NCBI GenBank assembly: GCA_022750435.1 | Contig: JAKIVS010000002.1 | Location: forward strand, 62,001-126,000 | From: Thermoplasmata archaeon | Lineage (GTDB): Archaea > Thermoplasmatota > Thermoplasmata > Lutacidiplasmatales > UBA184 | Reading direction: 5' to 3' | DNA length: 64,000 nucleotides | Shown: positions 55,715 through 57,374 of the stretch, piece after piece | How positions within the stretch are numbered: the first letter of the stretch is position 1 | Layout: every line of letters starts with the position of its first letter | Program-made: the position numbers and the translations under genes | Notes under the pieces: model-generated | What the model was told of the DNA's origin: nothing | The model's database searches: none | Seen by the model: only the letters and a program-made list of their open reading frames with translations

Positions 55715-56044
55715 TCAGGCCGACCGGAGCCACTCCGCGAGGGGGAGGAGATTGCCGTAGAGGGCCTTCCCGCGAGCGGTGAGGTCGTAGGACACGGGTG
55801 CCCCACGGACCGGTTCCTTCGCGGTGCGAACGACCAGCTTGGCCTTCTCTAGGGCCCGGAGCGTCGCTGTCAACGTGGCCGGGCTGACCCGCGGGAGGGA
55901 GCGTTGGATCGGACCGAACCGGAGGGTCCCGTGATAACCCAGAAGGGTGACGACGCACATTGCCCACTTCTTTCCCACGACGTCGATCAATCCGACCGGA
56001 GGGCAGGGGCACTCGAGCTCCCCATCGCAGCACATCGCGTCCAC
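55715..56044 (-). CDS. Cys-rich HxlR-family regulator of arsenic-type locus
   Basis: The 109-residue winged-helix protein has the HxlR core VVGKKWAMCVVTLLGYHGTL, TLTATLRALEKAKLVVRT and SYDLTARGKALYG. Its N-terminus MDAMCCDGELECPCPP holds four cysteines, with another in the core (WAMCVV), so thiol sensing of As(III), Sb(III) or another soft metal is likely. It is divergent from the Cys-rich peptide, arsC and channel genes. GTG 56044 is about 25 nt from the shared TATA box, so leaderless; ATG 56035 is an alternative. Confidence 0.8.
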   Translation of the reverse strand: MDAMCCDGELECPCPPVGLIDVVGKKWAMCVVTLLGYHGTLRFGPIQRSLPRVSPATLTATLRALEKAKLVVRTAKEPVRGAPVSYDLTARGKALYGNLLPLAEWLRSA

Positions 56045-56095
56045 TTCGTCCGTACGTAGCGGCGCCTTATGACTACTTCAGCGATTGAAGTGGAC
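56039..56095. promoter_or_regulatory. Symmetric operator around a bidirectional promoter
   Basis: GTCCACTTC (56039-56047) and GAAGTGGAC (56087-56095) form a 9-bp inverted repeat whose centre (56067) lies in the TATA box CCTTATGAC (56064-56072). An extra inner pair, ACTTCA (56075-56080) and TGAAGT (56086-56091), shares the ACTTC element. Each outer arm covers a predicted transcription start. Likely the binding site of the divergent regulator. Confidence 0.6.
56064..56072. promoter_or_regulatory. Bidirectional TATA box of the arsenic-type locus
   Basis: CCTTATGAC sits about 26 nt from the regulator GTG at 56044 (minus strand). On the plus strand it predicts a start near 56095, leaving a 13-nt leader with GGGGGTG before the peptide ATG. 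Confidence 0.55.
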
Positions 56096-56107
56096 GAGGG
56101 GGTGACC

Positions 56108-56200
56108 ATGACCGAGTGTTGCAAGTGTTGCTGTTGCTGCTGCTGCGAGACCGAGAGCGGCGGCGCGCAGAGCCCGACCAAGTGCTGCCGGACCGAGTGA
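56108..56200 (+). CDS. 30-residue Cys-rich peptide (11 Cys), possible metalloid chelator
   Basis: The frame encodes 30 residues with 11 cysteines, including a run of seven (MTECCKCCCCCCCETESGG, ending TKCCRTE). GGGGGTG lies 4-10 nt upstream of the ATG, a good ribosome-binding site. The TGA overlaps the arsC ATG (TGATG), so it is the first gene of the operon. The composition is metallothionein-like, although the motif is not from a known family. Binding of As(III) or other thiophilic metals is inference from context. Confidence 0.65.
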   Translation: MTECCKCCCCCCCETESGGAQSPTKCCRTE

Positions 56201-56628
56201 TGGCCGACCGACGGGTGTTGTTCGTCTGTGTGGAGAACGCCGCGAGGTCCCTGATGGCCGAGGCGATCTTCAACGCGACGGCACCCGGGGGGTGGGTCGC
56301 CGAATCCGCGGGAACTCGACCGGCGACCCACCCGAATCCACGGACCGGGAGATTTCTCCAGGAGATCGGACTCTCGCTCCCCCCGCACTCTCCGCAGCCT
56401 CTCTCACCGGCGGCCTCGGACGCCGCGGCCATCGTCGTGACGATGGGATGCCTCGACGACGCCAGCTGCCCGGTCCACCTCAAGAAACGCGAACTCCGGG
56501 ACTGGGGACTCCCCGACCCGGGCGGCCTGGACGACGCGGGATTCCGGTCGGTCCGGGACGAGATTCGCACGCGGGTCGGTGCCTTGATCGCGGAGATCCT
56601 TACCGAGAGCCCGGACCGGGCTCCGTGA
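56200..56628 (+). CDS. arsC: Arsenate reductase, low-molecular-weight phosphatase fold
   Basis: The 142-residue protein has the LMW-PTP signature CVENAARS (C-x5-R-S) near the N-terminus and a second cysteine pair in TMGCLDDASCPVHLKK, the redox cysteines of thioredoxin-linked arsenate reductases, followed by WGLPDPGG. It should reduce arsenate to arsenite. It overlaps the Cys-rich peptide gene by TGATG and the channel gene by GTGA. Length is normal for this class. Confidence 0.9.
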   Translation: MADRRVLFVCVENAARSLMAEAIFNATAPGGWVAESAGTRPATHPNPRTGRFLQEIGLSLPPHSPQPLSPAASDAAAIVVTMGCLDDASCPVHLKKRELRDWGLPDPGGLDDAGFRSVRDEIRTRVGALIAEILTESPDRAP

Positions 56629-57374
56629 CTCCGGGCTTGGGAACGCGTCTCCTGTCGGAGACGTTGGGAACCGCGCTTCTGGTGGGGATCGGGACCGGCG
56701 CGGTCGTGGCGAGCGCCGGCACGGGCTCGAGCCGGTTCCTGCTCCTGGCCGTCGCCTGGTTCCTCGCCGTGTCGGTCCCGGTGGCGCTGTTTGCCGGGAT
56801 CTCGGGCGCCCATCTCAATCCCGTCGTGACCCTCGCCCTCGTAGCCGACCGACGCGTCCCCGTAGGCGAACTCCCGCCGCACGTGGTCGCCCAAGTCGTC
56901 GGCGCGTTCCTCGGAAGCGCCACGGTCGCCCTGGCGCTCGGCACAGGGTCCCACCTGGGAGCGACCGTCCCCTCGACCAGCGTCGTGGAATGGATCTTCC
57001 TCGATGAGTTCGGGTTCACCTTCGTTCTGGTCGCCAGCGTCCTCCTCCTCGTCCGGGCCGGACCCGGCCGCTGGCGGTGGCGACTGACCTGGCCCGGACT
57101 CGTGGTCGCCGTCTCGACCTACCTGATCGGCCCGATCACCGGGAGTTCGCTCAACCCGGCGCGGTCGCTCGCCCCGGCGGTGCTTTCGTCGACCTACACC
57201 GACCTGTGGGTCTACTTCGTCGCCGCTCTGTTCGCGGCCCTCCTTGCGGTGGCGGTGGTTGGCCTCCTCGACGGACCCCCTCGAATGCCCTCCCGGTCGC
57301 GCGTCCCCGAGGACAATCGGCCTCCCGCCGCGGACGGGGCCGCCCCGCCACTTCCGCGGCGGCCGCAGACGTAA
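56625..57374 (+). CDS. MIP-family channel (aquaglyceroporin-like, probable arsenite efflux)
   Basis: The 249-residue protein has about six membrane helices and two half-helix loops: SGAHLNPVVTLAL (NPV instead of NPA) and GSSLNPARSLAPA (NPA). In arsenic loci such as aqpS of Sinorhizobium, the channel lets arsenite leave after reduction by ArsC. The same pairing is seen here. The cytoplasmic C-terminal tail is Pro/Arg-rich. The GTG overlaps the arsC stop (GTGA), so the three genes are one operon. Confidence 0.87.
   Translation: MTPGLGTRLLSETLGTALLVGIGTGAVVASAGTGSSRFLLLAVAWFLAVSVPVALFAGISGAHLNPVVTLALVADRRVPVGELPPHVVAQVVGAFLGSATVALALGTGSHLGATVPSTSVVEWIFLDEFGFTFVLVASVLLLVRAGPGRWRWRLTWPGLVVAVSTYLIGPITGSSLNPARSLAPAVLSSTYTDLWVYFVAALFAALLAVAVVGLLDGPPRMPSRSRVPEDNRPPAADGAAPPLPRRPQT

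Follow-up and report, generated by a model that had tools for sequence, protein, structure and literature searches.

A cysteine-rich peptide gene at the head of an HxlR-linked arsenic operon in Lutacidiplasmatales archaea

Within the window, the 64,000-nt stretch of Thermoplasmata archaeon DNA analysed here, a very short gene for a cysteine-rich peptide leads an operon that continues with an arsenate reductase and a channel gene. Judged from sequence, the peptide belongs to a family that is real and apparently undescribed, metallothionein-like in type and found in a new setting. We consider it probable (roughly 0.6) that the product is a small As(III) binder of metallothionein type, its gene opening an HxlR-controlled ars operon (peptide-arsC-MIP).

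The operon in the window

The host genome comprises 1.9 Mb in 28 contigs, with the window lying in contig C15. The gene order is hxlR (reverse strand), operator, Cys peptide, arsC and MIP, with the following features:

55718-56044, reverse strand: HxlR-family winged-helix regulator (Pfam HxlR 1.5e-16, above cut-off)
56052-56091, forward strand: 40-bp promoter/operator element GTACGTAGCG, between the divergent hxlR and the peptide ORF
56066-56070, forward strand: TATA-like CTTAT, part of this element
56075-56091, forward strand: inverted repeat ACTTCA-N5-TGAAGT, part of this element
56096-56107, forward strand: Shine-Dalgarno-like GAGGGGGTGACC, directly 5' of the peptide ATG
56108-56200, forward strand: Cys-rich peptide gene, MTECCKCCCCCCCETESGGAQSPTKCCRTE, at the head of the operon
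56200-56628, forward strand: arsC, LMW-PTP-type arsenate reductase (Pfam LMWPc 9.7e-20)
56625-57374, forward strand: MIP (aquaporin/aquaglyceroporin-like) channel (Pfam MIP 3.6e-34)

The peptide is 30 residues long with 11 Cys, seven of them consecutive, and overlaps arsC as TGATG, its TGA stop (56198-56200) sharing a base with the arsC ATG (56200-56202). The MIP gene in turn starts at a GTG that overlaps the arsC stop as GTGA (56625-56628). On all these points, and on the SD-like stretch upstream, the preliminary description of the ORF was accurate. When all ATG-started ORFs of 15–60 aa in the 64-kb window were scanned with a cut-off of 20% Cys, this ORF (together with its longer in-frame start) was the only one to reach it. 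That longer start, an ATG at 56069, falls within the TATA-like/operator element, which makes 56108 the better start. Within GAGGGGGTGACC, GGTGA matches the anti-SD complement GGAGGTGATC.

ArsC carries the catalytic Cys set of an arsC-type reductase: an LMWPc domain with the P-loop CVENAARS and the resolving-Cys pair GCLDDASCP, the P-loop being conserved in 81 of 82 homologues and the pair in 77. NCBIfam arsenate reductase models match it, yet score under their own cut-offs. Its named relatives come from Thermoplasmata MAGs, including Candidatus Lutacidiplasma silvani, and place the window in a Lutacidiplasmatales-type archaeon. The paper defining the order Lutacidiplasmatales gives acid soils and mine drainage as habitats where it is prevalent, in a text that contains no arsenic term. 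The channel would be expected to conduct As(III), given the AqpS precedent and the substitution by Acr3 described below. The regulator, a putative repressor/sensor, has a GTG start and a Cys-rich N-terminus (MDAMCCDGELECPCPP) and is divergent from the operon. In this arsenic locus, an HxlR-type protein with CPCPP and WAxC cysteines stands at 55718-56044, where an ArsR might.

Operator, peptide family and arsenic context

The intergenic regions gave the consensus GTACGTAGYG-N5-TTAT-N3-CNCTTCA-N4-TTGAAGT, which we used as an independent probe (up to three mismatches, with the reversed pattern as control). It matched once in the window and never in 100 shuffles. Among 78 congeneric genomes it detected 30 sites in 27, and across the whole order 39 sites, spread over 35 of 106 genomes, while the reversed control gave 0 in both sets. 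What comes after each of the 39 sites was counted by hand: 27 precede a Cys-rich peptide, 5 arsM (including the G091 site) and 7 no ORF or a degenerate one, and the operator was found ahead of peptide, arsC and arsM units only. By contrast, in shuffled 150-bp regions upstream of arsC a comparable ORF arose anywhere in 1% of trials and at the correct position in 0.16%. By these counts the ORF at 56108-56200 is a genuine gene and not a chance frame. The peptide ATG lies ~38 nt past the TATA-like TTAT and ~19 nt past the palindrome, and a short 5' leader containing the SD is therefore predicted.

CPCPP and WAxC are present in every one of the 39 HxlR homologues, a pattern that suggests a thiolate sensor. 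One or two extra upstream Cys occur in 20 of 22 regulators beside a Cys peptide and in 3 of 17 others (Fisher p 6e-6), an association that is not significant on tree-independent pairs and so, with shared ancestry considered, only suggestive. We found no paper linking HxlR with arsC in the literature searched, a set that excludes most subscription papers.

To follow the peptide across genomes, arsC was searched in the 78 congeneric genomes and the regions upstream of it were read. Within the order, the range covered here rather than bacteria at large, 27 of the 106 genomes (about a quarter), from three genera, hold members of the family, 29 different Cys-rich peptides altogether: those following the 27 operator sites, which are 22–42 aa long with 6–15 Cys, and two at loci (G061:C16 and G082) where the operator has more mismatches than the probe allowed. 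Whether related arsenic loci keep the frame had been chosen beforehand as the test that could overturn the proposal, and these 29 homologous loci carry it at the same operon position, with the operator on one side and, in almost every case, arsC on the other. Examples are MPETCCQDPGCACDPTTCPPGCCDDCC (G029), MENDCSATRCGCCDPMTCPPGCCEECC (G028), MSELCCPTPCCRIACCRMPCCETPCCDPKVCRPDCCTSCC (G078) and MPETGKPAPCCDRSNCSSCCCCCCCCGGDTSCG (G015); the Ca. L. silvani homologue, MSECKGCCCCCCQCDCRDVPSQPSCCRSA, has a GTG start. In layout the window peptide is nearest to the G082 and G061 copies, with their poly-Cys core and CCRxx end. Sequences diverge strongly, and many loci hold a different Cys-rich peptide in place of the window's version. 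What is kept is the Cys pairs, the reading frame and usually the stop overlapping the arsC start; CDPxxCPPGCCDxCC, often as the end, is common to many members. Long Cys runs occur in part of the family only, the maximum being nine consecutive Cys codons.

The peptide is dispensable, since it is missing from 14 of the 36 scored arsC loci with an adjoining divergent hxlR and from many ArsC-MIP operons, where arsM or nothing occupies its place. In two genomes, G027 and G340, the ORF seems to be retained with 2 and 0 Cys respectively, which would leave it some coupling role without Cys. In another, the second arsC copy (G017:C4, 3996-4360) matches as two pieces in different frames and may be frameshifted; the Cys peptide there is intact.

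Because the peptides are short and compositionally biased, profiles built from their alignments (A1, A2) performed weakly and missed the window's own peptide, and homologues were located via the operator and arsC instead. The window peptide and two typical members matched no Pfam or NCBIfam family, and a plasmid tblastn search gave no match. Two hits were rejected as compositional: Keratin_B2_2 (Pfam, high-sulfur keratin), at 0.0017 in 2 of 17 CPPGCC-type members, and asteropsin, the best PDB profile match, at 0.26. As no paper describing such a peptide was found either (again with most subscription papers outside the search), the earlier statement that its family is undescribed stands as far as Pfam, NCBIfam, PDB and the literature searched are concerned.

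The arsenic assignment of the operon, made earlier from the window alone, is strengthened by two findings: the presence of arsM in the same regulon and the replacement of MIP by Acr3. In several genomes the same operator precedes an arsM whose product scores 312 bits against the NCBIfam arsenite methyltransferase model (cut-off 263). Directly after arsC, 82 loci have MIP in 56 cases, Acr3 in 20 and never both, in agreement with bacterial ars operons, in which 18 of 18 MIPs were found without another transporter (PMC4435449). Close arsC relatives can differ in Acr3 versus MIP at the shared slot, as at L008 and L019. The first gene of the arsC loci scored was a Cys peptide in 25 and arsM in 30, never both in that scoring. 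MIP is downstream in 22 of 24 scored peptide loci; the preference of the peptide for MIP over Acr3 (Fisher p 0.001) is not significant on tree-independent pairs and is only suggestive.

Constraint and composition

To characterize selection on the ORF, we compared nine non-overlapping pairs of homologues. In frame, pS was 0.60 and pN 0.22, a ratio of 0.36, while the same procedure gave 0.77 and 0.89 in frames +1 and +2; protein-guided alignments tend to depress pN, a bias addressed by the other-frame controls. The preliminary description had proposed synonymous rates as a check, and the comparison indicates constraint. Non-Cys codons have a GC3 of 0.82 against a GC2 of 0.67, and a positive GC3-over-GC2 skew serves as a sign of purifying selection (PMC9094748). 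Over 25 homologues Cys makes up 34% of residues (261 of 773), Pro 13% and Asp+Glu 13%, while the hydrophobic residues LIVMFWY account for only 18 of 773 (2%), compared with 339 of 823 when the DNA is read in frame +2. These 25 are thus short, Cys-dominated and poor in hydrophobic and aromatic residues, as the metallothionein class is. Judged by codons and composition together, constraint acts on the peptide product, beyond the Cys codons alone.

Metallothioneins are likewise small, about one-third Cys, with CC and CxC-type clusters and almost no hydrophobic or aromatic residues, and those with known regulation respond to metal stress. The peptide differs from them in lacking sequence similarity to the described families (Pfam, NCBIfam, PDB profile) and in heading an arsC-MIP operon that has an HxlR protein as its regulator, and its metal binding is putative. 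The recurrent CPPGCC, CPGCC and CCPPGCC of the family resemble CCPGCC, the engineered tetracysteine tag that binds biarsenical dyes (PMC6273389). Both place Cys pairs around a Pro-Gly turn, and the tag binds trivalent arsenic; unlike the peptide, however, it is engineered, for organic biarsenicals, and the resemblance is an analogy only.

Possible role and alternatives

In the reading we prefer, arsenic or a similar thiol-reactive metalloid would reach the HxlR cysteines, and repression at the ACTTCA-N5-TGAAGT operator would be lifted so that the operon is transcribed. The ribosome would make the peptide and then, because its stop overlaps the arsC start, re-initiate on arsC. ArsC would reduce As(V), and the clustered and vicinal thiols of the peptide would bind the resulting As(III), keeping damage down until the metalloid exits by the passive MIP channel; vicinal thiols bind As(III) strongly (PMC6205960). 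Given its co-production with an As(III)-generating enzyme, the peptide would most simply serve as an As(III) buffer, which may be more useful with a passive two-way channel, although the ligand could be any thiophilic metal. A more elaborate form of this proposal, which we regard as possible but doubtful, is a ribosome-made As(III) trap with CCPGCC-like turns that does glutathione/phytochelatin-type chelation in passive-channel archaea, and whose translation may gate ArsC via Cys supply.

In 22 of 25 homologues the peptide ORF ends on a stop that overlaps the start region of arsC, and 18 of 25 arsC starts have no SD match, against 22 of 25 peptide starts that have one (of at least 4 nt). Stop overlap and the usual absence of an arsC SD point to translational coupling, by which the ORF may influence arsC output. 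The same geometry, with as many as nine consecutive Cys codons in the first ORF of the operon, would suit a cis-acting leader, in which the Cys codons sense Cys-tRNA/thiol supply by ribosome speed and tune arsC translation, the peptide itself being functionless. Mycobacterial poly-Cys short ORFs (Canestrari 2020, as cited in other papers) provide a precedent: they too are short upstream ORFs with runs of Cys codons adjoining an operon gene, the attenuator-like arrangement seen here, with long runs in part of the family. Compared with these mycobacterial leaders, the peptide ORF is SD-led and not leaderless (TTAT to ATG ~38 nt; SD matches at 22 of 25 starts; the site where transcription begins is only a prediction), and its operon serves arsenic rather than cysteine metabolism. 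Product-level constraint, seen in the hydrophobic depletion and the conserved DPxxCPPGCCDxCC, also speaks against a functionless peptide, and we consider the leader explanation unlikely. Leader RNA structure showed no excess over shuffles (mean z +0.39), the arsC start and the remainder being equally open, and an attenuator based on RNA structure is thus unsupported. Two peptides, moreover, are found apart from arsC. One belongs to a stand-alone hxlR-operator-Cys peptide unit (MPTTRGSDGRCDPSCCPPGCCDE; G011:C88, 758-881) with no ars gene alongside, the next gene being PPX/GppA-like by eye. The other (G081:C10, reverse strand, 1540-1050) lies at tandem operators, the first before a GTG-started poly-Cys peptide with nine consecutive Cys and the second before arsM. 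The stand-alone copies argue for a trans-acting product and, together with the lack of evident leader structure, against a pure leader-peptide attenuator. Altogether, a functional peptide whose translation is coupled to that of arsC seems to us more likely than a pure leader.

What such a peptide might bind or serve is a separate question. It could be a general thiol/metal buffer (Cu, Zn, Cd, Hg or oxidants), co-regulated with arsenic genes by happenstance: metallothionein-like composition is generic rather than arsenic-specific, and the G011 copy has no ars neighbour. The restriction of the operator to peptide, arsC and arsM units, and the Acr3 or MIP gene after arsC, make this quite unlikely. 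The preliminary description had proposed a chelator, donor or chaperone holding As(III) between reductase and channel. Metalloid binding is the role that would fit the composition best, but the handover from ArsC to MIP is unsupported, and we find it improbable that the peptide acts as a redox partner of ArsC, or takes As(III) over from it, and passes As(III) to the channel. The overlap with arsC and the frequent MIP downstream (22 of 24) would suit such a partner; however, ArsC with identical catalytic motifs occurs in many peptide-free ArsC-MIP operons, with arsM or nothing instead, two peptides are detached from arsC, and the high divergence of the peptides makes a docking surface unlikely. 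Finally, the TGC/TGT run of the window copy looks repeat-like, but a chance or low-complexity repeat without function is hardly credible and is refuted by the family, with its non-repeat homologues, its conserved frame and position, and the shuffle tests. A RiPP precursor (modified peptide) was considered but dropped, a non-systematic reading of nearby ORFs having revealed no modifying enzyme.

Other arsenic systems offer partial parallels. Like ArsD-type As(III) metallochaperones the peptide is small, Cys-containing, encoded in an ars operon and a possible As(III) carrier, but it is far smaller, shows no sequence similarity, and would have a channel as its partner, if any; no ArsA or ArsB was identified in the window operon. 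The AqpS/arsC loci of Sinorhizobium meliloti share the arsenate reductase and the MIP channel as As(III) exit, while neither a Cys-rich peptide nor an HxlR regulator is described there in the literature searched.

If the preferred reading is right, an archaeal arsenic-binding peptide is made from a ~90-base gene, a length commonly skipped by gene finders, under a type of regulator (HxlR) without an arsenic link in the literature searched. A protein-encoded chelator would then join reduction, pumps, channels and methylation among prokaryotic arsenic tools, and the 29 natural variants would form a ready series for As(III)-thiolate binding studies and biosensor design. At four loci (L131, L103, L125 and L114) the ArsM of the regulon has a Cys-rich N-terminal stretch (SSCCGG...SSCCND) preceding the methyltransferase core; this stretch may collect As(III) in a manner resembling the peptide.
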